Below are positions 23,239-36,207 of a stretch of DNA of 45,725 bases, in pieces (within the stretch, counting starts at the first letter, position 1; every line of letters starts with the position of its first letter). The DNA is taken from the NCBI GenBank assembly GCA_021738565.1, contig JAIPBT010000035.1, positions 1-45,725 on the forward strand, read 5' to 3'. The translations under genes were made by a program, and so were the position numbers. Below the pieces are notes generated by a model that ran no database searches, was not told the origin of the DNA, and saw only the letters and a program-made list of their open reading frames with translations. The DNA comes from Bacteroidales bacterium (lineage in GTDB: Bacteria > Bacteroidota > Bacteroidia > Bacteroidales > GCA-2748055).

Positions 23239-23266
23239 TGTTGAGATTGAATATTTATTATGTTTG
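23239..23266 (+). promoter_or_regulatory. Possible promoter of the aprBA-qmoABC operon
   Basis: The -7 box TATGTTTG (23259-23266) matches TAnnTTTG exactly; a TTGTTG about 15 nt upstream is a weak -33 element. Transcription from about 23272 would leave a 20-nt leader before the AprB start at 23293, which also argues against the alternative upstream ATG at 23260. Confidence 0.4.
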
Positions 23267-23292
23267 TTTCCAGACACCAACTCACTGAATCT

Positions 23293-23727
23293 ATGCCCAG
23301 TTTTGTAATTAACGAAAAATGCGACGGATGCAAGGCCCAGGACAAGACCGCCTGCCAGTACATCTGTCCGAACGACCTCATGGTACTTGACAAAGAATCC
23401 AACAAAGCATATAACCGGGCGGTAGATATGTGTTGGGAGTGTTACAGCTGTGTTAAAATATGTCCCAACCAGGCAATTGAAGTTCGTGGATATGCTGATT
23501 TCATGCCTTTGGGGGCTGCTGTTCAGCCGCTCAGAAGTACAGATTCCATCATGTGGTCAGTCAGGTTTCGCAATAAGCAGATAAAGCGCTTTAAGTTTCC
23601 GATCCGTACAATTCCCGAAGGCACATTGGTTCCTGATGGTGGATTTGAAGACGGGGCGGGTGACTTGCATGACCATGAGCTCAGAACAGAACCGGAAAGC
23701 CTGGGAACTAAGCTGTATAAGAAGTAG
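23293..23727 (+). CDS. aprB: Dissimilatory-type APS reductase, beta (ferredoxin) subunit
   Basis: 144 aa from ATG 23293 (MPSFVINEKCDGC). Carries two [4Fe-4S] clusters that pass electrons to the AprA flavin. Cluster 1 ligands are C10, C13, C21 and C25 (CDGCKAQDKTACQYICPNDL); cluster 2 ligands are C47, C50, C53 and C57 (CWECYSCVKICPNQAIEV). The following GYADFMPLGAAVQPLRSTDS and IMWSVRFRNKQIKRFKFPIR are diagnostic of AprB and not of ordinary ferredoxins; this tail wraps AprA in the known structures. The unequal spacing of the first cluster (C-x7-C) is also typical of AprB. First gene of aprBA-qmoABC; aprA starts 50 bp later. Cytoplasmic heterodimer with AprA. Confidence 0.93.
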   Translation: MPSFVINEKCDGCKAQDKTACQYICPNDLMVLDKESNKAYNRAVDMCWECYSCVKICPNQAIEVRGYADFMPLGAAVQPLRSTDSIMWSVRFRNKQIKRFKFPIRTIPEGTLVPDGGFEDGAGDLHDHELRTEPESLGTKLYKK

Positions 23728-23777
23728 ATTCTACAATAATACACTTCACGTCTTTATCTTAACTTATTAATTACCGG

Positions 23778-25682
23778 ATGAAAGCTGAAAATTTTGAAAC
23801 TGTCATTGTTGAAACGGACCTGTTGATCCTTGGTGGCGGCATGGCTGCCTGTGGTGCTGCTTTCGAAGCATCACACTGGGCAAAAAAACACAACAGGAAA
23901 ATTGTCCTGGTCGATAAAGCTGCTATGGAAAGAAGCGGCGCAGTCGCAATGGGCCTTTCGGCCATCAATCTTTACCTGGGGTTAAAAAATGGAAAGAATA
24001 CAATTGAAGATTATGTCAACTACGTGAAGAACGACCTTATGGGCATCACAAGGGAGGATTTGGTGGCAAACATTGCAAGGCACGTTGATTCAACGGTTCA
24101 CTTATTTGAAAAATGGGGACTGCCTATCTGGAAGGACGAGGAGGGGAATTACATCAATGAAGGGAGATGGCAGATAATGATCCACGGTGAAGCCTATAAA
24201 AACATTGTCTCTGAGGCAGCCAAAACCGCATTGAAGGAGCTTGGAGAAAACGGCAGGTATTATGAAAGGGTTTTTATCACCGAACCAATTATGGAAGGTG
24301 GCAGGTGCATTGGAGCAGTTGGCTTCAGTGTCAGGGAAATGAAGTTTTATGTTTTCAGGGCCAGGGCTGTTCTGGATACAATGGGGGGAGCCGTTCATGT
24401 ATTTCGGCCGCGTTCCGTGGGAGAAGGACTGGGCAGGTCATGGTACCCGCCTTTCAATTCCGGGGCAAGCGCCTATTTTACGATCAGGGCCGGAGCCGAG
24501 ATGACATGCCAGGAGGTGAGGTTCGTTCCTGTAAGATTCAAGGATTCCTACGGACCCGTTGGGGCTTGGTTCCTGTTATTCAAGTCAAGGGCTACCAATG
24601 CCAAAGGTGAGGACTATATGGAAAAAAGGGCAAAGGAACTGGAAAAGTGGGCCCCCTATGGTACAGTAAAACCAACCCCGGCGAATTTACGCAATTACCT
24701 GATGCTTAAAGAAATTGAAGAGGGCAACGGTCCCATATACATGCGGACAGAAGAAGCCATCAAAAAGCATGTTGCCGATATTCCGGATGAGAAGGAGGCC
24801 CGCAGGAAATTAAAGCACCTGGAATCGGAGGCATGGGAAGATTTTCTCGATATGACCATCAGCCAGGCATTGAACTGGGCCGCGCACAATATAATGCCGG
24901 AGGAATCTCCTTCAGAAATATCAGCATGTGAACCCTATTTCATCAGCTCACATTCGGGGGCATCAGGGGCATGGGTCAGCGGTCCTGCAGATCTCGGTAA
25001 CAGCGAGACTTCGTGGGGTTATGATAACCTGACTACCGTTCCAGGACTTTTTGCTGCTGGCGATGCTTCCGGCGCCTCTTCACACAAATTCTCATCCGGG
25101 TCCTTTACGGAAGGTAGAATCGCTGGCAAGGCTGCCATTGCTTATTGCGTTGATAATGAAATAACTCCGGGCATCAGTGATGATCAGATCAATGAACTCA
25201 GGGAGATGGTTTTTAAACCCCTTGCAACGTACGACGACAATAAGGATTATGCCAATGACCCGGATGTAAATCCGAATTTTATAAAGCCAAAGATGTTCAT
25301 GTTCCGGTTGCAGAAGATAATGGATGAGTATGCAGGGGGAGCTTCCGTAGGGTTCAGGACTTCAGAGCCTCTGCTCAAAAAGGGTTTGGAATACCTGGAA
25401 TTTATGAAGGAGGATGCCGGTAAACTGGCTGCATCAGACATGAATGAATTGATGCGGTGCTGGGAAAACATCCATCGTCTCTGGCAGGCCGAATCACATA
25501 TCCGGACCATGCTCTTCAGGGAAGAGACCCGCTGGCCAGGATACTATTTCAGGACCGACTTTCCTGAAATGAAGAGCGAGTGGGAAGTTTTTGCCAATTG
25601 CAAATGGGATCCCGGCAGTGACAGCTGGCAAATGATAAAGAGGGAGGTGCCAGGCATGATCACAAAAAAGCAGGAAGAATGA
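23778..25682 (+). CDS. aprA: Dissimilatory-type APS reductase, alpha (FAD) subunit
   Basis: 634 aa, the usual length. Reduces adenosine 5'-phosphosulfate to sulfite and AMP, or runs in reverse, using FAD. The N-terminal dinucleotide fold is TDLLILGGGMAACGAAFEAS. A succinate-dehydrogenase-like flavoprotein layout follows, but with AprA-specific stretches: MERSGAVAMGLSAINLYLG, VHVFRPRSVGEGLGRSWY, EMTCQEVRFVPVRFKDSYGP, and ISSHSGASGAWVSGPAD with the active-site His at about residue 392. Near the C-terminus, AESHIRTMLFREETRWPGYYFR is also typical. No key stretch is missing. The partner AprB lies upstream, and the QmoABC complex that connects AprAB to menaquinone lies downstream. Direction (reductive or oxidative) cannot be read from sequence by eye. 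Confidence 0.94.
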   Translation: MKAENFETVIVETDLLILGGGMAACGAAFEASHWAKKHNRKIVLVDKAAMERSGAVAMGLSAINLYLGLKNGKNTIEDYVNYVKNDLMGITREDLVANIARHVDSTVHLFEKWGLPIWKDEEGNYINEGRWQIMIHGEAYKNIVSEAAKTALKELGENGRYYERVFITEPIMEGGRCIGAVGFSVREMKFYVFRARAVLDTMGGAVHVFRPRSVGEGLGRSWYPPFNSGASAYFTIRAGAEMTCQEVRFVPVRFKDSYGPVGAWFLLFKSRATNAKGEDYMEKRAKELEKWAPYGTVKPTPANLRNYLMLKEIEEGNGPIYMRTEEAIKKHVADIPDEKEARRKLKHLESEAWEDFLDMTISQALNWAAHNIMPEESPSEISACEPYFISSHSGASGAWVSGPADLGNSETSWGYDNLTTVPGLFAAGDASGASSHKFSSGSFTEGRIAGKAAIAYCVDNEITPGISDDQINELREMVFKPLATYDDNKDYANDPDVNPNFIKPKMFMFRLQKIMDEYAGGASVGFRTSEPLLKKGLEYLEFMKEDAGKLAASDMNELMRCWENIHRLWQAESHIRTMLFREETRWPGYYFRTDFPEMKSEWEVFANCKWDPGSDSWQMIKREVPGMITKKQEE

Positions 25683-25737
25683 CCTCCCTGGACAATATTC
25701 AATTCAAACAGGGAATTGAACAGATAGAAGGATAGTG

Positions 25738-26967
25738 ATGAATCCAATATTGATCATAGGGGGAGGAATATCAGGAGTAACTGCAGCTGTGGAACTCGCT
25801 GAGGCAGGAAAAGAAGTTATCCTTGCAGAGAGAACTTCTCATCTCGGAGGGAATGTGGTTAAAATGCACAATTATTTTCCCAAATTATGTCCGCCTGCAT
25901 GCGGCATGGAGATAAATTTCAGGAGGATCCGCAACAATACGAGGATCAGGGTCCTTACACATGCTGAGGTGTTAAGTATTGAAGGTGTGACAGGGGAAAA
26001 GAGGGTGCGTATAAAAATTTCCGGGAAACGGGTGAATGATCTTTGCACAGCATGTGGCGAATGTGTGGAAGTTTGTCCTGAAGAGCGGCCGGATCAATTT
26101 AATTACAATTTTGGGGTGACACGTGCAATATACATGCCCTATCCACTGGCCTTTCCCCAGAAATATGAAATTGACACACATTATTGCAAGGGAACAGGTT
26201 GCGCAAAATGCGCAGAGATATGTGCTTACAATGCGATTGACCTGGAAGCTGAAGATAAAGTCATGGATATCGATGTACATTCAGTTATTGTCGCTACAGG
26301 ATGGGAAAATTATGATCCTTCGAAAATTGACGGGTTGAATTATGAGAAAAGCAAAGACATTGTTTCCAATGTGGAATTTGAACGGCTGTTATCAGTGACT
26401 GGTCCGGGCAAAGGAAAGTTATTGAGACCTTCCGATGGGAAGGCGCCCGGATCAATTGCATTTGTTCAATGTGCTGGCTCCAGGGACAGAAATTACCTTT
26501 CTTATTGTTCGGCTGTTTGTTGCTCAGCTTCCCTAAAGCATGCCTTGAATGTTACTGAGATATCACCGGAAACCAGGGTTGATATCTATTATATTGATCT
26601 CAGGGTTACAGGAAGGAATGAAGATTTCCTTCGCAGGGTAGAAAATATTGACAGGATCGGCCTTGTGAAAGGTAAAGTAGCTGCCGTTGATGTTGCCGGG
26701 AATAACGAACTTATTGTTGCTTTTGAGGATTTTAAGCAGCACAGGAAAATGAAGGTCGGCTATGATATGGTAGTGCTTGCAACCGGCATTATCAGTGCCG
26801 GAGATATTCCAGGTTTGTTTAGGAATGAAGAGGGTTTTTATAAAAATCAACAGCAGGAAGGTGTTTACCCGGTTGCTTGCGCAAAAAAGCCCATGGATGT
26901 TTCATCTTCTGTAAAAGATGCAACTTCAGCTGCACTTCTTGCAATGAAAGAAGATCGAATCAAATAA
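25738..26967 (+). CDS. qmoA: Quinone-interacting oxidoreductase subunit A (HdrA-like)
   Basis: 409 aa from ATG 25738. Flavoprotein of the Qmo complex, related to heterodisulfide reductase HdrA. The FAD fold PILIIGGGISGVTAAVELAE is followed by HLGGNVVKMHNYFPKLCPPACGMEINFRRI, a near-diagnostic QmoA stretch. Two four-cysteine groups follow: C104, C107, C110, C114 (CTACGECVEVC) and C151, C156, C159, C163 (CKGTGCAKCAEIC), consistent with [4Fe-4S] binding. The sequence then reads SIAFVQCAGSRDRNYLSYCSAVCC as in HdrA/QmoA/QmoB. It would take part in electron transfer between AprAB and membrane quinol. 55 bp after aprA; same operon. Confidence 0.9.
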   Translation: MNPILIIGGGISGVTAAVELAEAGKEVILAERTSHLGGNVVKMHNYFPKLCPPACGMEINFRRIRNNTRIRVLTHAEVLSIEGVTGEKRVRIKISGKRVNDLCTACGECVEVCPEERPDQFNYNFGVTRAIYMPYPLAFPQKYEIDTHYCKGTGCAKCAEICAYNAIDLEAEDKVMDIDVHSVIVATGWENYDPSKIDGLNYEKSKDIVSNVEFERLLSVTGPGKGKLLRPSDGKAPGSIAFVQCAGSRDRNYLSYCSAVCCSASLKHALNVTEISPETRVDIYYIDLRVTGRNEDFLRRVENIDRIGLVKGKVAAVDVAGNNELIVAFEDFKQHRKMKVGYDMVVLATGIISAGDIPGLFRNEEGFYKNQQQEGVYPVACAKKPMDVSSSVKDATSAALLAMKEDRIK

Positions 26968-26969
26968 AA

Positions 26970-27050
26970 ATGAATTACAAACTAATAAATAACGATCGTT
27001 CAATTGTTCAAATGTCATTGCTTAAATTAAAACTCATTATTGGTGGCTAA
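26970..27050 (+). CDS. Short ORF overlapping the qmoB start (possible coupling peptide)
   Basis: A 26-codon ORF starts 2 bp after the qmoA stop (ATG 26970) and ends TAA at 27048-27050, overlapping the GTG start of qmoB at 27043. It has no recognisable domain. Because qmoB lacks an ATG, translation of this short frame could bring ribosomes to the weak qmoB start. This is inference; it may be non-coding. Confidence 0.3.
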   Translation: MNYKLINNDRSIVQMSLLKLKLIIGG

Positions 27051-29196
27051 GAGACTTGGGGCATATGTATGCGAAGGATGCAGGATTGGGGCATCTGTTG
27101 ATGTGGAAAAACTGTGTTCAAATATGAACGCAGAGCAGGATGTTGTTTTTTGTAAAAGCCACCAGGCATTGTGCTCCCCGGAGGGTATCAGGGAGATCGT
27201 TTCTTCTTCAAACGAAAGCAGCCTTGATGGCATTCTTCTGGCTGCCTGCGGAAGGGGAACAAAGGATGGACTGTTCAGTTTTCAGGAAGATTTGACAACA
27301 GAACGCGTTAATCTCCGTGAACTTGTGGCATGGGCTATGGATCCTTATGACGAGGATACTCAAATGGCTGCAGGCGATTATACGCGTATGGGGTTAGAGG
27401 GATTGAGAAAAAATGCAGGGGCAATGCCTTTTTTTCTTGACAACATCAGCAATGATATCCTTGTTGTTGGAGGCGGCGTAAGTGGGCTGAAGGCAGCAGC
27501 GGAAGGCGCTGCGAATGGTTATAAAATTCACCTGGTCGAACGAAATGCCGTTTTGGGCGGATGGGCCGCGAAATGGGATCGGCAGATCCCTTTTGACGAA
27601 CCGTTTGATCAATTGCGGGAACCGGTGGTGTATGACCTGATCAAAACCGTTCAAAACAATGAAAAGATTGCCATATACCTGAATACTTCCATTGAGAAAA
27701 TTGGTGGGCAACCCGGTGATTTTAATGTAAGGTTGCGTGCTCTATCCGGAACACAGAAAAATGCCAATGGGGATACTAAAAATGTAATAGAATTGAAAAC
27801 AGGTTCTGTGGTGGTTGCTACAGGGTGGGAACCCTACCGTCCCTTGAAAAAACCTTTTTATGGTCTTGGTGAAATCCCGGGAGTCATCACTTCTGTTGAC
27901 CTGGAAGAGCGTATCAGGGAAAAATCACTTGGAAAGACAGAATCGATCATGTTCCTGCAGTGTGCAGGATCGAGGGACCAGGAACACCTCCCGTATTGCT
28001 CTTCAGTTTGCTGTGGAATATCACTCAAACAGGCAAAGTATGTCAGGGACCGTTTCCCGGATGCAATCGTCTACATCGTGTACAAAGACATTCGCACCCC
28101 CGGCTTTCTGGAGGATTTCTATAAAAACATGCAAGACGATATTAATATTGTTTTTATTAAAGGCAATGTGGTATCGGTCGCCTCCTCTTTGAATGACAAA
28201 ATTCTTGTAGAGATAGATGGTGCGATGCCGGGGGAACAGGTACAGGCAGAAGTGGAACAATTGGTACTTGCTACCGGAATGGTCCCCAATGCAACCGATG
28301 ATCTTAGATTGGAATACAGGCAGGGCAATGGATTGCCTGAATTAAAATACGAATTCCCCGACTCACATTTTATTTGCTTTCCTTACGAAACCAGGCGAAC
28401 CGGTATATATGCTGCAGGAGGGATCAGGGCCCCTCTTGACATTCCCTCGGCCATGGACGATGGATCCGGAGCCATGATGAAAGCCATACAAATGATCGAA
28501 TCTGCCAGGAGGGGGGAATCGGTGCATCCGAGGGCCGGGGACCGTTCTTATCCGGAATTATACATGGAGCGGTGTACCGATTGTAAACGTTGTACTGAGG
28601 AATGTCCCTTCGGAACCTATGATGAAACGCCGGAGGGTACACCGGTGGTCCATCCCAACCGATGCAGAAGATGTGGTATATGCCTGGGCTCCTGTCCGGA
28701 AAGAGTGATCAATTTTGCAGACTATTCGATCAATGGTATGTCAGCAAAAATAAAGGCGGTGGAAGTGCCGGATGAATTTGAGGAGAAACCCAGGGTGCTC
28801 GTATTTGTTTGTGAGAATGATGCACTGCCGGCCCTTGAAATGGCCGTCCGAAAAAAATTAAAGATCAATCCTTATGTGAGAATAATACCGGTAAGATGTC
28901 TTGGTTCCATCAACAGGGTGTGGATATCCGATGCTCTTTCAAAGGGATACGATGGTATTCTGCAGATAGGATGCCAGCCCGGAGAGAATTACCAGTGTCA
29001 TTTTATACACGGTAGTGAGCTCAGCGAACAGCGAAGTGAGATTTACGAGGAGACTTTGTCATCAATGATGCTGGAACCGGAGCGCATAAAGACGAAGTTT
29101 GTTGAGATCACCGATTATCAAAAGGTCATCCAATATATTGATGACTACATGGAGGAATTGGAATTGATCGGTCCGAATCCGTTTAAGGATATGTAG
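27043..29196 (+). CDS. qmoB: Quinone-interacting oxidoreductase subunit B (HdrA-like with MvhD-type domain)
   Basis: About 717 aa. No ATG fits: an in-frame stop precedes, leaving TTG 27040 or GTG 27043 as starts. The N-terminal segment carries CEGCRIGASVDVEKL and FCKSHQALCSPEGI. A central HdrA-like FAD domain follows with ILVVGGGVSGLKAAAEG and MFLQCAGSRDQEHLPYCSSVCC. A 2[4Fe-4S] ferredoxin domain lies around residues 508-555 (CTDCKRCTEECPFGTYDE, CRRCGICLGSCPERVINF). A C-terminal MvhD-like iron-sulfur domain follows (VLVFVCENDALPALEMA, VRCLGSINRVWISDALSKG, QIGCQPGENYQCHF). This domain order is specific to QmoB. Cytoplasmic face of the complex, joining AprAB/QmoA to QmoC. Confidence 0.92.
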   Translation: MAKRLGAYVCEGCRIGASVDVEKLCSNMNAEQDVVFCKSHQALCSPEGIREIVSSSNESSLDGILLAACGRGTKDGLFSFQEDLTTERVNLRELVAWAMDPYDEDTQMAAGDYTRMGLEGLRKNAGAMPFFLDNISNDILVVGGGVSGLKAAAEGAANGYKIHLVERNAVLGGWAAKWDRQIPFDEPFDQLREPVVYDLIKTVQNNEKIAIYLNTSIEKIGGQPGDFNVRLRALSGTQKNANGDTKNVIELKTGSVVVATGWEPYRPLKKPFYGLGEIPGVITSVDLEERIREKSLGKTESIMFLQCAGSRDQEHLPYCSSVCCGISLKQAKYVRDRFPDAIVYIVYKDIRTPGFLEDFYKNMQDDINIVFIKGNVVSVASSLNDKILVEIDGAMPGEQVQAEVEQLVLATGMVPNATDDLRLEYRQGNGLPELKYEFPDSHFICFPYETRRTGIYAAGGIRAPLDIPSAMDDGSGAMMKAIQMIESARRGESVHPRAGDRSYPELYMERCTDCKRCTEECPFGTYDETPEGTPVVHPNRCRRCGICLGSCPERVINFADYSINGMSAKIKAVEVPDEFEEKPRVLVFVCENDALPALEMAVRKKLKINPYVRIIPVRCLGSINRVWISDALSKGYDGILQIGCQPGENYQCHFIHGSELSEQRSEIYEETLSSMMLEPERIKTKFVEITDYQKVIQYIDDYMEELELIGPNPFKDM

Positions 29197-29258
29197 CCGT
29201 GATAAAAACAGGCCTCAGGCTTTAATATAAAGAGGTATTCTTATGTATGTGATCCGAT

Positions 29259-30443
29259 ATGACCGGGAAAATAATGAAATTCAAAGTGATCGATTTAAAA
29301 CCAGACATAGAATTTAAAAGGGACCTTGAAAAACTCAGCGGTGCTTCACTCAGTACATGTATGCAGTGCGGTACCTGTTCGGTGGTTTGCAATTTGTCAC
29401 CTGAAGAAAAACCATTTCCCAGAAAGGAGATGGTTTATGCAGGTTGGGGTATGAAGGAAAAACTGATCGGCAATCCTGATGTCTGGTTATGTCACCAGTG
29501 CGGGGATTGCAGTACCCATTGTCCGAGGGGTGTGGATCCCGCTGATGTTATTGCTGCCGTCAGGTTGCTCACATACAGGCAATATGCCGTTCCCCGTTTT
29601 ATGGGTAAGATGGTTTCGCGTCCATCCATGCTGCCCGTGGCAATTTTGTTACCGGTTATAATTATCACAGCCATCATATTTATGGCAGGAACACTGGAAA
29701 TACCGGATGGTCCCGTAAACTATTCTAAATTCTTCCCCCATGCATGGCTGAATGGTTCATTCACTCTGCTGACCCTGCTTTCATATGGAATTGCCTCCAT
29801 CGGGCTGGCCAGGTTCTGGAAAGATATCAGCATGCAATACCATGCTGATCCTGGTTTTAAAAAGGGTTTCTTCAGAAGTTTGTGGAAAGTAAAGAATGAG
29901 ATACTTACCCATTCAAGGTTTTCAAAATGCGAACAGAACCGCAGCAGGAAGATCTCTCATTTTCTGGTTTTTTATGGTTTTATTCTGCTGCTGCTGGTGA
30001 CGATATATGCAATATATGCTGCTGTGACAGGGAGGTATCCACTTGCACTGACCAATCCTTTTAAGATACTTGGGAACCTTTCATCGTTCATGCTACTGGC
30101 CGGACTGGGAATGATGCTTTTCAGCCGCATTAAAGGAGGAGAAGAATTAAAACGGAGCACATACCCTGACTGGCAATTGATCGTTGCACTGCTTTTTCTT
30201 ACAATTTCAGGCGTGATCATCGAGGCCGCAAGATTCCTGGACTGGAGCATGGCTTATTACATGTATTTCTTTCACCTGGTTTGTGTTTGGTTTGTAATAA
30301 TATACCTTCCTTACACCAAATTCGGACATATCATTTACCGTACCGTTGCAATGACTTTCGCCTTTTCCGTTGGCAGGAATCAGGGATTTAGTGAAGATCA
30401 GGAACAGCATGCCGTTCAAAAACCGATATTAAGCAGTCATTAA
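29259..30443 (+). CDS. qmoC: Quinone-interacting oxidoreductase membrane subunit C
   Basis: 394 aa. An N-terminal HdrC-like domain with two [4Fe-4S] sites (CMQCGTCSVVC, then CHQCGDCSTHCPRG) is followed by about six membrane helices of a cytochrome-b-like HdrE/NarI type, such as VAILLPVIIITAIIFMAG, FLVFYGFILLLLVTIYAIY and MYFFHLVCVWFVIIYLPY. Conserved His residues in the helices (for example around HLVCVW and KFGH) may bind haem b. It exchanges electrons with menaquinone in the inner membrane. Last gene of aprBA-qmoABC; a weak stem follows at 30467. Start ATG 29259; an ATG at 29274 is also possible. Confidence 0.92.
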   Translation: MTGKIMKFKVIDLKPDIEFKRDLEKLSGASLSTCMQCGTCSVVCNLSPEEKPFPRKEMVYAGWGMKEKLIGNPDVWLCHQCGDCSTHCPRGVDPADVIAAVRLLTYRQYAVPRFMGKMVSRPSMLPVAILLPVIIITAIIFMAGTLEIPDGPVNYSKFFPHAWLNGSFTLLTLLSYGIASIGLARFWKDISMQYHADPGFKKGFFRSLWKVKNEILTHSRFSKCEQNRSRKISHFLVFYGFILLLLVTIYAIYAAVTGRYPLALTNPFKILGNLSSFMLLAGLGMMLFSRIKGGEELKRSTYPDWQLIVALLFLTISGVIIEAARFLDWSMAYYMYFFHLVCVWFVIIYLPYTKFGHIIYRTVAMTFAFSVGRNQGFSEDQEQHAVQKPILSSH

Positions 30444-30466
30444 TGCCTGTAATTACCCGTGATTTT

Positions 30467-30488
30467 TGGGAAACAAATCCCAGATTTT
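30467..30488 (+). terminator. Weak stem-loop after qmoC
   Basis: TGGGA (30467-30471) and TCCCA (30478-30482) form a 5-bp stem with a 6-nt loop, followed by GATTTTTG. It is the best terminator-like signal between qmoC and the next operon, but the stem is short. Confidence 0.3.
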
Positions 30489-30563
30489 TGTATCTTTTGA
30501 TTTTGCCGGTCTCCCATTTTGGCCCGGTACTATTTTTATAATGTATTAATGATTAACCTTTCA

Positions 30564-31982
30564 ATGAAAGAGGAACTTGCACGTTTGTTCAGGCAATACA
30601 CCGGATCGGAACCTGATCACATCAGTTCGATACCGCGATCTGTCTCAACAAGGAAATATTTCAGAATTGAAGGAGATGGCCGCAGCGTCATAGGCACCTA
30701 CTCACCTGATATTCGCGAAACGAAGGCATTCTCTCATTTTTCTCGTCATTTTACTGATCTGGGCATCAGGGTTCCCAGGGTATATATTGAAAGCCATGAT
30801 AAAAAATATTATCTACAGGAAGATCTTGGAAATACCACACTTTTTGACCTTGCTGAATCTTTGAAAAATTCAGGAGACAGCAACATACTTAATTTGTACA
30901 GGAATGCCATTGATGAAGTGATCCGTCTTCAGTTGAAAGGTGACCGGGTGGTAGATTACAGTCTCTGTGTACCACGACCTGAATTTGACAAACAATCGGT
31001 ACTGTGGGATCTCAATCATTTCAAGTATTATTTTTTGAAACTTTCAGGAATATCCTATGATGAGCAACTTCTTGAAAATGAATTTGATATGATCGCTGGA
31101 GAAATTACAGAAATTAAACTGAAAGGCTTCATGTTCAGAGATTTTCAGTCCAGGAACATTATGATCAGGGACGGCATGGCATGGTTTATTGACTTCCAGG
31201 GAGGACGAAGAGGACCGTTACAGTATGATCTCGCTTCCCTGGTGTTCGAGGCGAAGGCTGGCCTGTCTGAAGAAGAGAGAACCGAACTCATTGAATATTA
31301 CCTGGGATCATTGCGTCAGCATACAGCTGTCAATCAGGAGGATTTCTACAGGGATTTTTATCTGGCGGCCCTGGTAAGGGTACTGCAGGTCCTCGGTGCA
31401 TACGGGTTAAGGGGGATCGTTGAGAAAAAGGCCGTATTTCTGCAAAGCATTCCCAATGGTTTGAGTAACCTCTCTTTTATCCTTGAGCACCTTGATCAGG
31501 CTTACAATGAAAATTACCTGACCAGGTTGCTTCATGAACTTACACTGATCGGTGAGAAATTCAGAAAATTGCCGGCCCCTTTTGAAGGATTGACAGTGAC
31601 AATCTCCAGTTTTTCCTACAGGGGGCAACTGCCGGATGACATAACAGGCAATGGAGGAGGTTTTGTTTTCGACTGCAGGTTGCTTGACAATCCCGGAGCT
31701 CACGAAAAATTCAGAGAATTAAATGGAATGGACAGGGAAGTTGTTCAATTCATGGAACAAAAAAACGGGGTGGGTCAATTTGTATCTAATGTAAAAGAGC
31801 AACTCGACCAGGCAATTGAGGTTTATCAGAAACGGGGATACAAAGACCTGATGGTTAATTTTGGTTGCACCGGCGGACAACACAGGTCAGTTTATGTTTC
31901 CCATAAAATAGCAGATTGGATTCGTTGTATGAAAAATGTCAGGGTCATAGAAATTCACCGGGAGTTGGGAATGGAAAAATAA
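30564..31982 (+). CDS. Amino-sugar kinase (AmgK-like) fused to a RapZ C-terminal domain
   Basis: About 472 aa from ATG 30564 (ATG 30549 also possible). Residues 1-330 are an APH-type phosphotransferase resembling AmgK, the MurNAc/GlcNAc 1-kinase of peptidoglycan recycling: catalytic loop FMFRDFQSRNIMIRD (about 190-204) and metal loop FIDFQGGRRGPLQYDLASL. Residues from about 352 on match the C-terminal domain of RapZ: VTISSFSYRGQLPDD, FVFDCRLLDNPG and GCTGGQHRSVYVSH. RapZ in enterobacteria binds GlcN6P and controls GlmS; here the domain has no kinase-type RapZ N-terminus. The next genes (MurU-like, NagB-PIG-L) support an amino-sugar role. The fusion could make kinase activity or regulation respond to an amino-sugar phosphate (inference). 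Confidence 0.82.
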   Translation: MKEELARLFRQYTGSEPDHISSIPRSVSTRKYFRIEGDGRSVIGTYSPDIRETKAFSHFSRHFTDLGIRVPRVYIESHDKKYYLQEDLGNTTLFDLAESLKNSGDSNILNLYRNAIDEVIRLQLKGDRVVDYSLCVPRPEFDKQSVLWDLNHFKYYFLKLSGISYDEQLLENEFDMIAGEITEIKLKGFMFRDFQSRNIMIRDGMAWFIDFQGGRRGPLQYDLASLVFEAKAGLSEEERTELIEYYLGSLRQHTAVNQEDFYRDFYLAALVRVLQVLGAYGLRGIVEKKAVFLQSIPNGLSNLSFILEHLDQAYNENYLTRLLHELTLIGEKFRKLPAPFEGLTVTISSFSYRGQLPDDITGNGGGFVFDCRLLDNPGAHEKFRELNGMDREVVQFMEQKNGVGQFVSNVKEQLDQAIEVYQKRGYKDLMVNFGCTGGQHRSVYVSHKIADWIRCMKNVRVIEIHRELGMEK

Positions 31983-32117: not shown

Positions 32118-32252
32118 ATGAGCAAGAAGATATGCAGTGACAAAAAGGTTTTGAATGTTAAAATGGCTGGGGAAAAGTCTCGGTATTACTGTAATAAATG
32201 TGGAGACAAGGTGACGAAGGAAAAATGGGTCTGCAAACCAAAATTGATCTGA
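32118..32252 (+). CDS. 44-aa four-cysteine (zinc-ribbon-like) protein
   Basis: The ORF from ATG 32118 to TGA 32250-32252 encodes 44 aa, basic, starting MSKKICSDKK. Cysteines lie at residues 6, 25, 28 and 40: YYCNKCGDKVTKEKWVCKP has a CxxC knuckle plus a later Cys, and the early Cys6 could complete a zinc site. The stop is 5 bp before the MurU-like start, so the two are probably translated together. I have an impression of similar short Cys-rich proteins in Bacteroidales but cannot name a family. Length and composition favour a real small protein over chance; function unknown. Confidence 0.6.
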   Translation: MSKKICSDKKVLNVKMAGEKSRYYCNKCGDKVTKEKWVCKPKLI

Positions 32253-32257
32253 TTACA

Positions 32258-32968
32258 ATGATTCCAACCGTAATGATCCTTGCAGCGGGAACCGGGTCGA
32301 GGATGCGACCTCTCACTGATGTAAATCCCAAGGCGCTCCTTGAATTCAGGGGAAAGCCAATGTTGGATCACATTTTTAGCAAACTCAAAGCCCAGGGTTT
32401 TCATCGCATTGTAATTAATATTCATCATTTTGCCGGTAAGATAAAGGAGTACATTGAGAAAAATCCGGTTGACAGTCTCGAGATCAATTTTTCAGATGAG
32501 AGCGAACGGCTTATGGATACTGGAGGGGGGATCATTAATGCGCGCAAATACCTTGAAGGTTGCGGACCTTTTATTGTACACAATGTTGATATTTTCTCAG
32601 ATATCGATCTTCACAGGCTGTATGAATACCACATTCGACATAATCCATTGGCCACACTTGCGGTCAGGCAACGTCAAACCAGCCGCAACCTGCTGGTCGA
32701 TAAGGATGGATATCTGCAAGGCTGGAGGAACAACGATACAGGTGAAACGGTCATGATAAGCGATGAAGGATTTGAAAGGGCAGTTGCTTTTTCCGGAGTC
32801 CAGGTAATAGACCCGCGGATATTTGAAATTATTGATCATTCAGAGCCCTTTTCGATCATCCGGGCATACCTGGAGCTTGCTAGGGATTACCCGGTAATGG
32901 TATATGATCACTCAGATGACACCTGGATTGATATGGCGCACAGAGGCAATTACCCCGAACTCTCTTGA
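32258..32968 (+). CDS. MurU-like sugar-1-phosphate nucleotidyltransferase
   Basis: 236 aa from ATG 32258. The N-terminal nucleotide-binding motif MILAAGTGSRMRPLTDVNPKAL and LEFRGKPMLDHIF define the NTP_transferase fold; FIVHNVDIFSDIDL carries the metal-binding Asp region. The nearest characterised logic is MurU, which makes UDP-MurNAc from MurNAc-1-phosphate after the AmgK kinase, and the AmgK-like gene lies just upstream. A mannose-1-phosphate or glucose-1-phosphate specificity cannot be excluded from sequence alone. The preceding 44-aa gene stops 5 bp before this start. The frame is open upstream to 32198, but that start would overlap the small gene. Confidence 0.8.
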   Translation: MIPTVMILAAGTGSRMRPLTDVNPKALLEFRGKPMLDHIFSKLKAQGFHRIVINIHHFAGKIKEYIEKNPVDSLEINFSDESERLMDTGGGIINARKYLEGCGPFIVHNVDIFSDIDLHRLYEYHIRHNPLATLAVRQRQTSRNLLVDKDGYLQGWRNNDTGETVMISDEGFERAVAFSGVQVIDPRIFEIIDHSEPFSIIRAYLELARDYPVMVYDHSDDTWIDMAHRGNYPELS

Positions 32969-33059: not shown

Positions 33060-35384
33060 ATGCAGAAATTTGAATCCACTGTAGAGAAGCGTTTCTTTGA
33101 GCTTTCAGGCAGCCGGGATCAGACAACAAGGATCCCATACATATTGGTTGATAACTTTCCCAAACTCGGCTTTTTCGCGGCTTTGCGATTTTTGGAATGG
33201 GCAGGGCATAATCCGGATGGAGTGATCAGTCTTCCCACCGGCAAAACACCCGAGTATTTCATCAAATGGACACAAAACCTGCTGGAGAACTGGGATTCAA
33301 AAAAAGTCCGGGACTACCGGAACGAATATGGGATAGGAAAAATGAAGCAACCACGTCTGGATAACCTGTCATTCGTGCAGATCGACGAATTTTACCCCAT
33401 CAATTCCAACCAGCATAACAGTTTTTATTATTATGTAACCAAATATTACATTGAAGGATTGGGATTGAAGAGGGAGAATGCATTGCTCATCAATTCGGAT
33501 GAGATAGGGTTGTATGAAAATATGCATTTTTCCCAGGTCTTCCCTGATAATAACATAGACCTTACCCTGCGCTACCGGGATGCCAAAAATTCACAGGAGC
33601 AAATGCAGCAGCGATCAATTTTCATGATTGATGACTGGTGTATAGATTATGAGCATACGATACGTGAAAAGGGGGGAATAGGGTTCTTTCTCGGAGGAAT
33701 TGGTCCGGATGGTCATATTGCATTTAATACCCGGGGAACGGATCATTATTCCACAACCAGGCTTACCCCCACAAATTTTGAAACCCAGGCCCAGGCCTCA
33801 TCGGACCTGGGTGGTATTGAAATTTCCAGGAACAGGCTTGTGATCACCATTGGACTGGAGACCATTGCGTACAATCCGGAGACAGTGGCAATAATCTTCG
33901 CGGCCGGGGAAGCAAAAGCAGATGTGATCAAAGATGCATTGGAAAATGAACCAAACAACCTGTATCCTGCAACATCACTTGGAAAGTTAAAAAACAGCAG
34001 GTTTTACCTTACAAAAGGAGCGGCGGTGAAACTTCATGATACCGTGAAAAATTATTATGAAAACGGAGATTGGACCGATGAGAAGAGAGAAAGGGCCGTG
34101 ATCGGTCTGTGCAAAAGGCTTGAGAAATATGCGCACCACCTGACAATGGAGGATCTCCTGGGTGACCCTTATTGTAAAATGATACCCGATCTGAGCCTGA
34201 ATACGGTACAGAACGTAATAAAACGAATCGGGGACAAATTAAACAGAGGCTGTGCAAGTGAGCAGAATCAAATGTATTATCATACCGGTCCTCATCACGA
34301 TGACATCATGCTGGGGTTGCTGCCGCATGTACACAGGCTCTCCCGGAATGAAACCAACAATGCCCACTATTGTGTTCTTACCTCTGGTTTTACTGCTGTC
34401 ACAAATTTATTTGTAATGGACCTGCTTGCAGATATAAAGAACTTTCTTGGGGAAGGTATGATACAGATGACAAAATATCCTGATTTTTTCAAGAATGGTT
34501 ATAAGCACAAATGGGACAAAGATGTATACCATTACCTGACGAAGGTGGCATCAGGTGAGCCCCATGAGCGAAGGCGCGGAGTCTGCCACAGGATGGTCAG
34601 GGCCATTGTGGATATATATGGTATAAACAGTATTGATATCCTGCGTAATAAAATAGATGACATCCTTTCGGTATTGAGAAACAGTTATGAAGGCGAGAAA
34701 AATCCACCTGAGATACAGCAATTAAAAGGGATGATAAGGGAGTTCGAGGAAGAACTCGTATGGGCACATTTTGGCTACAAGGTAAACAACGTTCATCATC
34801 TCAGGCTTGGGTTCTATACCGGGGATATATTTACAGAACAACCTACCTTTGCTCGTGATGTCACACCAATTCTTGATCAGTTAAAGGAGTACAATCCTAC
34901 GGTTATAAGTCTTGCATTTGACCCGGAAGGAAGCGGTCCTGATACACATTACAAGGTATTGCAGACGATTGCCGAGGCAATACGGATCTGGAGCCAGGAG
35001 AAAGACCTGAGCGAACTTCGGATCTGGGGTTACAGGAATGTCTGGTTCAGATTTGATGCATCAGAAGCCAATGTGATTGTTCCGGTATCCCTGAATGCCA
35101 TGGCAGTGATGGATAATGCTTTTTCAAGCTGTTACATCAGCCAGGTGGACGCATCATTTCCGAGTTACCTCTATGATGGAAAATTCTCAGAATTAGCCAT
35201 CAATATTTGGGTAGATCAGCTTAATGAGATACAGCTGGTCCTGGGGAAGGATTATTTCTATCAGAACCAAAGTCCCAGGATACGTACCACACATGGTTTG
35301 ATCTATTTTAAAGAGATGTCTGTTCCTGAATTCCTGAATCACGCCCGTGCCCTTGAAAAATCTATGGAAGGCCTGGTACATTGA
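33060..35384 (+). CDS. NagB-like glucosamine-6-phosphate deaminase fused to a PIG-L deacetylase domain
   Basis: 774 aa. Residues 1-330 form a NagB/6-phosphogluconolactonase fold: VISLPTGKTPEYFIKW, FVQIDEFYPINSNQHNSFYYY, and GIGFFLGGIGPDGHIAFNTRGTDH. This converts GlcN6P to fructose-6-phosphate and ammonia. The C-terminal part (from about 400) is a LmbE/PIG-L zinc deacetylase with the motif GPHHDDIMLG and a His around NVHHLRLGFYTGD. The fused form is known from Bacteroidota annotated as NagB. Both activities could act on N-acetylated sugar phosphates, the deacetylase releasing acetate before deamination (inference). It follows the AmgK-RapZ and MurU-like genes, so the block directs amino sugars either to cell-wall recycling or to glycolysis. 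Confidence 0.88.
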   Translation: MQKFESTVEKRFFELSGSRDQTTRIPYILVDNFPKLGFFAALRFLEWAGHNPDGVISLPTGKTPEYFIKWTQNLLENWDSKKVRDYRNEYGIGKMKQPRLDNLSFVQIDEFYPINSNQHNSFYYYVTKYYIEGLGLKRENALLINSDEIGLYENMHFSQVFPDNNIDLTLRYRDAKNSQEQMQQRSIFMIDDWCIDYEHTIREKGGIGFFLGGIGPDGHIAFNTRGTDHYSTTRLTPTNFETQAQASSDLGGIEISRNRLVITIGLETIAYNPETVAIIFAAGEAKADVIKDALENEPNNLYPATSLGKLKNSRFYLTKGAAVKLHDTVKNYYENGDWTDEKRERAVIGLCKRLEKYAHHLTMEDLLGDPYCKMIPDLSLNTVQNVIKRIGDKLNRGCASEQNQMYYHTGPHHDDIMLGLLPHVHRLSRNETNNAHYCVLTSGFTAVTNLFVMDLLADIKNFLGEGMIQMTKYPDFFKNGYKHKWDKDVYHYLTKVASGEPHERRRGVCHRMVRAIVDIYGINSIDILRNKIDDILSVLRNSYEGEKNPPEIQQLKGMIREFEEELVWAHFGYKVNNVHHLRLGFYTGDIFTEQPTFARDVTPILDQLKEYNPTVISLAFDPEGSGPDTHYKVLQTIAEAIRIWSQEKDLSELRIWGYRNVWFRFDASEANVIVPVSLNAMAVMDNAFSSCYISQVDASFPSYLYDGKFSELAINIWVDQLNEIQLVLGKDYFYQNQSPRIRTTHGLIYFKEMSVPEFLNHARALEKSMEGLVH

Positions 35385-35487: not shown

Positions 35488-36207
35488 ATGGAATTGACGA
35501 AGGAATTAGAAGAAAGGATCAGGGATTGGAATGAACGTTTTTCGGACAGCAGTCCGGAAGATGTAATTCAGTTTTTCCTTGGTGAGTTCGGTAAGCAGAT
35601 TTCACTGGCCACAAGCATGGGAGCTGAAGACCAGGTAATCACTGATATGATCTCGAAAGCAGACAGGGGCGCAAGGATCTTTACGCTGGATACAGGAAGA
35701 CTTTTCCCGGAGACATACGACCTTATTGATCAAACCAATAAAAAATACAATATCAAGATCGATGTATATTTTCCCGATAAGCGCAAGGTGGAATCCATGG
35801 TAAAGGAAAGGGGGATCAACCTGTTTTACGAAAGTGTTGAAAACCGTAAAATGTGTTGCGGTATACGTAAAGTTGAGCCGTTGCAGCGTGCCTTTGAAGG
35901 CATGAGCGCATGGATCTGTGGTTTAAGAAAAGACCAGACCGTTAGCAGGTTCTTTACCAAATTGGTTGAGTGGGATAAGGTGAATGGTTTAATAAAGATC
36001 AATCCGCTGATCGATTGGACAGAGAAGGATGTGTGGAATTATATAAGGTCGAATGATGTTCCGTTTAACCCCCTTCATGAACGCGGTTATGCCAGCATTG
36101 GATGTCAGCCCTGCACACGTGCCTTGCAGCCCGGAGAGGACTTTAAAGCCGGCCGGTGGTGGTGGGAAAGCCAGGAACAAAAGGAGTGCGGCCTGCACAA
36201 AAGATAA
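35488..36207 (+). CDS. cysH: Assimilatory APS (PAPS) reductase with Fe-S cysteines
   Basis: 239 aa. Reduces adenylyl- or phosphoadenylyl sulfate to sulfite. The PP-loop region is SLATSMGAEDQV. The catalytic cysteine lies in the C-terminal KECGLHKR (C234). The extra pairs C123-C124 (KMCCGIRKVEPL) and C206/C209 (IGCQPCTRAL) form the [4Fe-4S] ligand set that marks APS-preferring CysH, unlike E. coli PAPS reductase. WICGLRKDQT is also present. It would use thioredoxin as reductant in the cytoplasm. This is a second, unrelated route to sulfite beside AprAB in the same window. sat/cysDN are not seen nearby. Confidence 0.92.
   Translation: MELTKELEERIRDWNERFSDSSPEDVIQFFLGEFGKQISLATSMGAEDQVITDMISKADRGARIFTLDTGRLFPETYDLIDQTNKKYNIKIDVYFPDKRKVESMVKERGINLFYESVENRKMCCGIRKVEPLQRAFEGMSAWICGLRKDQTVSRFFTKLVEWDKVNGLIKINPLIDWTEKDVWNYIRSNDVPFNPLHERGYASIGCQPCTRALQPGEDFKAGRWWWESQEQKECGLHKR

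Follow-up and report, generated by a model that had tools for sequence, protein, structure and literature searches.

Introduction

The gene aprA, which encodes the alpha subunit of APS reductase, serves as a marker for organisms that reduce sulfate or oxidize sulfur. Within the Bacteroidota, Dsr or Apr enzymes are reported for Chlorobia and Kapabacteria (parts of PMC10591310 and PMC6338057), and Bacteroidota from Zodletone are listed among sulfate reducers (part of PMC9040765). Dissimilatory APS reductases are described as reversible, and an Apr-like enzyme serves assimilation in the methanogen M. thermolithotrophicus, which provides a precedent for an assimilatory role (both from part of PMC10322725). 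In the titles and abstract openings of open-access papers, a scope outside which most subscription papers lie, no description was found of an Apr-Qmo module that accompanies CysH in Bacteroidales without Sat.

Here we analyze such a module in a Bacteroidales MAG of 3.98 Mb (the focal genome, G000; 83 contigs, 98.47% complete, 0.62% contaminated). The window, that is, the whole stretch of DNA analyzed, is the entire contig C57 of 45,725 bp.

Results

An aprBA-qmoABC Module with Conserved Catalytic Residues

Five adjacent genes on the + strand were identified as aprB, aprA, qmoA, qmoB, and qmoC, as the preliminary description of this DNA had proposed, with AprA, AprB, and QmoC scoring above curated cut-offs. 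The APS reductase is encoded by aprB (23260–23727, +; beta subunit with two [4Fe-4S] clusters; TIGR02060, 197.7 bits, cut-off 135.65) and aprA (23778–25682, +; FAD-containing alpha subunit; TIGR02061, 850.1 bits, cut-off 641.75). These are followed by qmoA (25735–26967, +), an HdrA-like flavoprotein gene assigned from its operon position and a sub-cut-off match to the HdrA2 model (336.8 bits); qmoB (27040–29196, +), which encodes an HdrA-like flavoprotein with a C-terminal FlpD domain (118.7 bits); and qmoC (29259–30443, +), which encodes a membrane subunit with an Fe-S N-terminal part (NF038018, 397.4 bits, cut-off 300). QmoA and QmoB both match HdrA models with scores below the cut-offs of those models, and no Qmo-named model is among the matches listed for either. 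The gene order is that of QmoABC systems, and all five frames are open. The module had earlier been taken to begin at 23239; the longest aprB ORF starts 21 bp further on, and the true aprB start may lie near 23293, since a homologous protein begins at residue 12. A terminator-like hairpin, a pattern match only, stands 3' of qmoC (30465–30484, +), in a window that holds 17 such sites versus 12.7 expected.

AprA aligns with the APS reductase of Archaeoglobus fulgidus over nearly its full length (757 bits). Ten active-site and channel residues whose roles are described in part of PMC2211403 (N74, Y95, E141, W234, R265, L278, R317, D361, H398, and H446 in A. fulgidus numbering) are conserved in all 13 sequences compared, from the focal genome and 12 relatives. 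The preliminary description had allowed that catalytic residues of AprA might prove to be missing; they are present. The eight cluster cysteines of AprB are invariant in 8 genomes, and the equivalent of Trp-B48 is found in the focal AprB. The same 8-genome invariance holds for the cysteine set of QmoA, for the cysteines of two CX2CX2CX3C motifs in QmoB, and for two CX2CX2CX3C motifs plus five histidines in QmoC. The five genes are therefore predicted to encode a working AprBA-QmoABC system, which would carry two electrons between the APS/sulfite couple and menaquinone.

Because most pairs showed saturated dS, constraint on the module was assessed by protein distances and branch lengths instead of dN/dS. 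Among the 18 contig proteins compared, AprB and AprA differ least in protein distance between the focal genome and its congener G003. The terminal branch of the focal AprA measures 0.13–0.15, versus 0.03–0.05 in congeners (about 3–4 times longer). Acceleration of this size is not seen in QmoA, QmoB, QmoC, CysH, or MnmA, and AprB is not clearly accelerated (0.12 versus 0.05 and 0.13). The long AprA branch could mean relaxed constraint; as judged from sequence, the enzyme appears functional, with constraint that has possibly changed.

The Module Is Native to Its Contig and Forms One AprA Group in Bacteroidales

The assignment of the host to Bacteroidota holds: ordinary Bacteroidota genes lie on the contig, among them one for a protein with a CHU_C sorting domain, and the neighborhood is kept in relatives. 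The gene order around the module recurs in stretches from eight relatives (G003, G002, G009, G004, G025, G008, G017, and G012), running where covered from RelA/SpoT and CLC through CysH, MnmA, and UvrD with local insertions and losses. Because relatives keep this neighborhood, a chimeric contig, the other reservation of the preliminary description, is ruled out. Recent foreign DNA was likewise rejected as a candidate: the GC content of the apr and qmo genes is 0.43–0.48, codon use is odd only in the short aprB, and composition does not separate the operon from the rest.

AprA matches were obtained in 26 of 100 relatives at E 0.001 and in 28 of 393 genomes sampled from the order at E 1e-50; the weak matches of G031 and G076 (18 and 29 bits) were not counted, and in G001 a contig edge leaves an end of 27 residues. 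There are 44 known carriers, of which 38 (all but G001, G021–G024, and G027) were examined for other genes, and 27 of these 38 are at least 90% complete. The 52 rows labeled Bacteroidales, of which two (L072 and L099) carry “Chlorobiota” in their record titles, group together (SH-aLRT 99) in a quick tree built from 100 AprA rows. This group joins a polytomy whose two other branches are a group rich in Zixibacteria and a mixed one of Planctomycetota, Gemmatimonadota, and Desulfobacteraceae. A Kapabacteria-type origin was considered and rejected, as the three Kapabacteria rows fall outside the Bacteroidales group in this tree, whose rows do not include Chlorobiaceae AprA. A single acquisition of the module by the Bacteroidales lineage is probable, being the simplest way to read the tree, and the source was probably of the sulfate-reducer type.

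Sat and Siroheme Sulfite Reductase Are Missing from Nearly All Carriers

The preliminary description noted no sat or dsr gene within 20 kb of the module. This is true and understates the case, as a genome-wide search recovered neither family anywhere in the focal assembly. Sat (PF01747) was found in none of 81 genomes (0/21 and 0/60), 38 of them AprA+ and the focal genome included. NIR_SIR (PF01077), a family that takes in assimilatory sulfite reductase as well as DsrAB, was found in none of the first 21 genomes (18 AprA+, the focal one among them) and in 6 of the 60 further genomes, namely one of 20 AprA+ genomes (G418) and five of 40 AprA− genomes (in G068 as a partial match). The siroheme sulfite/nitrite reductase family is hence represented in a single one of the 38 AprA+ genomes. 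As controls, 14 named genomes were matched by the Sat family in 5 cases and by NIR_SIR in 11. Among the best 80 aprA loci of the named collection, a Sat-like ORF, whose seed was confirmed as Sat, occurs in 32 of 47 non-Bacteroidales loci versus 0 of 33 Bacteroidales loci, although absence from a locus is weak evidence alone because many loci are short.

Unless Sat and Dsr genes escaped the searches, their absence rules out sulfate respiration and Dsr-type sulfur oxidation in their known forms; for sulfur oxidation of the Sat plus reverse DsrAB type, both components are absent from the focal genome. A role in sulfur energy metabolism, one of three that had been proposed for the module, is contradicted in its known Sat/Dsr forms by the absence of Sat and NIR_SIR.

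An Assimilatory-Type APS Reductase Gene Accompanies aprA

The same window holds a gene that the earlier description overlooked: cysH (35488–36207, +), 9.9 kb from aprA, which encodes a thioredoxin-dependent [4Fe-4S] APS reductase of the assimilatory type (TIGR02055, 276.8 bits, cut-off 235.3). The best solved chain for its product is 2goy, an adenosine phosphosulfate reductase, and C123, C124, C206, C209, and C234 are invariant in 8 genomes. Between qmoC and cysH lie a fusion of an APH-type, weakly AmgK-like kinase with a RapZ C-terminal domain (30519–31982) and a MurU-like nucleotidyltransferase (32198–32968), a pair that looks like an aminosugar/peptidoglycan recycling cluster, as well as a 774 aa protein (33060–35384) conserved in the genus and with no Pfam match at 0.001, whose N-terminus and C-terminal half, judged by eye, may be glucosamine-6-phosphate deaminase-like and PIG-L deacetylase-like, respectively.

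CysH was found in 37 of the 38 AprA+ genomes, the exception being G005, versus 24 of 40 AprA− genomes that were hand-picked without regard to sulfur genes (Fisher 5e-5, uncorrected for kinship). Three AprA− genomes of the first set stand outside these 40; CysH was found in G011 and G020 and not in G007. The gene lies on the aprA contig in 19 of the 37 genomes and no more than 10.1 kb from aprA in 18, a limit chosen after the data were seen and a count in which same-family species are not independent; by chance, a given gene is expected within 10 kb in about 0.5% of genomes. The linkage occurs in six families (f1, f14, f72, f75, f83, and f100) with varied arrangement. The two genes are divergent in f14 and in all but one of the four f75 genomes; in the remaining f75 genome they share a strand. 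They also share a strand in the other four families, where cysH lies downstream in f1 and precedes aprB in f72, f83, and f100. The other 18 of 37 genomes, which include some short-contig assemblies and also G291 with about 10 contigs, carry cysH on another contig, and the two genes are unlinked in other families, such as f94. Among the flanking genes scanned, which cover part of the flanks, no known sulfate transporter stands beside a linked cysH; these genes include Rho, a Mur ligase, a fucosidase-like protein, NamZ, NhaA, and a sulfatase. The conserved proximity suggests that cysH is a partner of the Apr-Qmo module.

Of the 24 CysH+ AprA− genomes, 23 (all but G073) have CysD, yet NIR_SIR was not found in 19.

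The Focal Genome Lacks CysDN and Keeps an APS Kinase

Neither CysD nor CysN was matched in the focal genome. CysN is present at E 1e-20 in 18 of 21 genomes, being missing from G000, G007, and G015 and present in the congeners G002 and G003; among AprA+ carriers, CysN was found in 16 of 18 and CysD in 17 of 20. Ahead of cysN, G003 and G002 have FtsK-like, 7TM-HD, and NlpC/P60 genes; these are assembled in order on contig C63 of the focal genome, where a C10 peptidase gene and others stand in place of cysN-cysD; this mapped absence concerns one genome, with one flank matched. The focal genome has lost cysDN, unless the pair moved into the unassembled 1.5%. A search for CysD alone found none in G109 and G284 (one genus) or in G174, which are 92, 82, and 94% complete. 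The peptidase on C63, of the C10 family, carries an inhibitor and a type IX sorting domain (L181:15293–17293). Next to cysN-cysD in G003 stand a SusD-like gene and one that probably encodes SusC (L051:6818–15712), an unusual partnership for sulfate activation.

On another contig of the focal genome (C65), outside the view of the preliminary description, the APS kinase gene cysC adjoins cysQ; directly upstream of the pair is a gene for a sodium/bile-acid-type symporter (L170:8566–9642). G002 and G003 show partial APS-kinase matches over the first 49 of 152 profile positions (E ∼8e-4), which we read as another ATPase, though the matches are nominally past the cut-off and have in-frame neighbors. 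Two sulfotransferase-like genes lie on the module contig (6019–7140 and 21224–21874). The second (Sulfotransfer_4) has a homologue in G002 and G003 as well, and since their APS-kinase matches are weak, it is no proof of PAPS use. With CysDN and Sat absent, Apr-Qmo is the sole recognized APS-forming enzyme of the focal genome.

Discussion

The reading that we favor, and to which we give about even chances, is that Apr-Qmo serves these Bacteroidales as an APS/sulfite–menaquinone oxidoreductase at an assimilatory APS node, with a direction that we infer for each kind of carrier. The module would have been uncoupled from sulfate respiration, Sat being absent and siroheme sulfite reductase nearly always so, and it would now sit with CysH, usually CysDN, and sometimes CysC. 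Because most carriers have CysDN, quinol-driven reduction of APS to sulfite is the simplest reading there: menaquinol would most likely drive this step in parallel to the thioredoxin-driven CysH, and the sulfite would be a product for biosynthesis and not for sulfide. As 36 of the 37 CysH+ carriers show no siroheme sulfite reductase, sulfite may be an end product, for example for sulfonolipids, which are known in Bacteroidota and whose synthesis (cysteate) would be a possible sink for sulfite (background from parts of PMC10191378 and PMC11211663). In the focal species, APS would come from Apr-Qmo alone, and this favors the oxidation of sulfite and AMP to APS with menaquinone as acceptor, the APS most likely passing to CysC for PAPS. 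Quinol-driven assimilation, as the preliminary description put it, fits most carriers, but the focal genome has no CysDN to make APS; sulfite oxidation, or the sulfite detoxification that the description also suggested, would be a better fit there. Several observations tell against the favored reading: Apr-Qmo would duplicate CysH in CysDN+ carriers, the AprA+ genomes G418 and G005 respectively have a NIR_SIR protein and show no CysH, the combination of CysH with no CysD recurs in G073, which is AprA−, cysH stands on a contig apart from aprA in 18 of 37 carriers, the mapped loss of cysDN concerns a single genome, and the long terminal branch of the focal AprA could mean relaxed constraint.

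A related proposal, which we consider unlikely, makes Apr-Qmo and CysH one ATP-sulfurylase-free unit, in which sulfite is oxidized to APS that is then either converted to PAPS by CysC, as in the focal genome, or reduced by CysH; if true, this would amount to a sulfite-driven PAPS route or a thioredoxin-to-menaquinone shuttle. The second outcome, taken by itself, has Apr-Qmo oxidizing sulfite and AMP to APS and CysH reducing APS back with thioredoxin, so that catalytic sulfite would carry electrons from thioredoxin to menaquinone. It explains both the linkage of cysH in six families and the joint presence of Apr-Qmo and CysH in a genome without CysDN, but redox energy would seem to be wasted, many AprA− genomes (24/40) have CysH as well, and no precedent was found in the parts of the literature examined; we judge it improbable. 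HIT-family enzymes, as adenylylsulfatases or APS:phosphate adenylyltransferases, hydrolyze or phosphorolyze APS. If one of them cleaved APS in place of Sat, Apr-Qmo could oxidize sulfite through to sulfate, for detoxification or lithoheterotrophy. Such a route works without CysDN, as the focal genome requires, and suits a genome with no Sat and with no siroheme sulfite reductase to remove sulfite; we nonetheless consider it unlikely, since why CysH, which turns APS into sulfite, is kept and linked to the module goes unexplained.

The focal module might instead be a relic decaying after a recent loss of CysDN, or CysDN might lie in the unassembled ∼1.5%. The faster AprA of the focal lineage and the CysN of the congeners G002 and G003 speak for this, whereas the five open frames, the intact residues, and the lack of clear acceleration in CysH, QmoA, and QmoB speak against it, and we judge it rather unlikely. 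Classical dissimilatory sulfate reduction or Dsr-type sulfur oxidation, with the missing genes unassembled, is strongly disfavored and, in our estimate, very improbable: the module is of the sulfate-reducer type and sulfate-reduction capacity is reported for Bacteroidota (parts of PMC9040765 and PMC6338057), but the 38 AprA+ genomes, of which 27 reach 90% completeness or more, yielded no Sat, and NIR_SIR was found in one of them. On the same counts (Sat 0/38, NIR_SIR 1/38), environmental aprA sequences from this Bacteroidales clade should not be taken as a sign of sulfate respiration. Together, the linkage of cysH to the module and the absence of cysDN in one species offer a natural experiment on which way Apr-Qmo runs, and the module raises the question of the fate of sulfite in these cells.

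Compared with the assimilatory CysDN-CysH-CysI pathway, the carriers share CysH, often linked, and mostly CysN (16/18) and CysD (17/20); they differ in that siroheme sulfite reductase was not found in 37 of 38 carriers and in that the focal genome is without CysDN. The PAPS reductase of M. thermolithotrophicus (8a8o) is likewise of the Apr type, with an assimilatory role in that organism. It is PAPS-specific, however, its pathway includes ATP sulfurylase and sulfite reductase (part of PMC10322725), and the focal AprA is far from it, with 315 bits versus 757 bits for the A. fulgidus APS reductase. The sat-aprBA-qmo systems of Chlorobi and Ca. Thermonerobacter (Kapabacteria) contain the same enzymes in phylum-level relatives, with sat adjacent and dsr genes reported (part of PMC6338057), neither of which the focal genome has. 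Sulfate-reducer-type loci often carry Sat (32 of 47 among the best 80 loci), in contrast to the Bacteroidales loci (0/33) and to the focal genome, which is without Sat and DsrAB. The AprBA-QmoABC of these sulfate-reducer-type systems, from Zixibacteria, Desulfobacterota, Acidobacteriota, and others, has the same subunits and falls in the same AprA tree, and among the best 80 loci its AprA is 65–72% identical to that of the focal genome.
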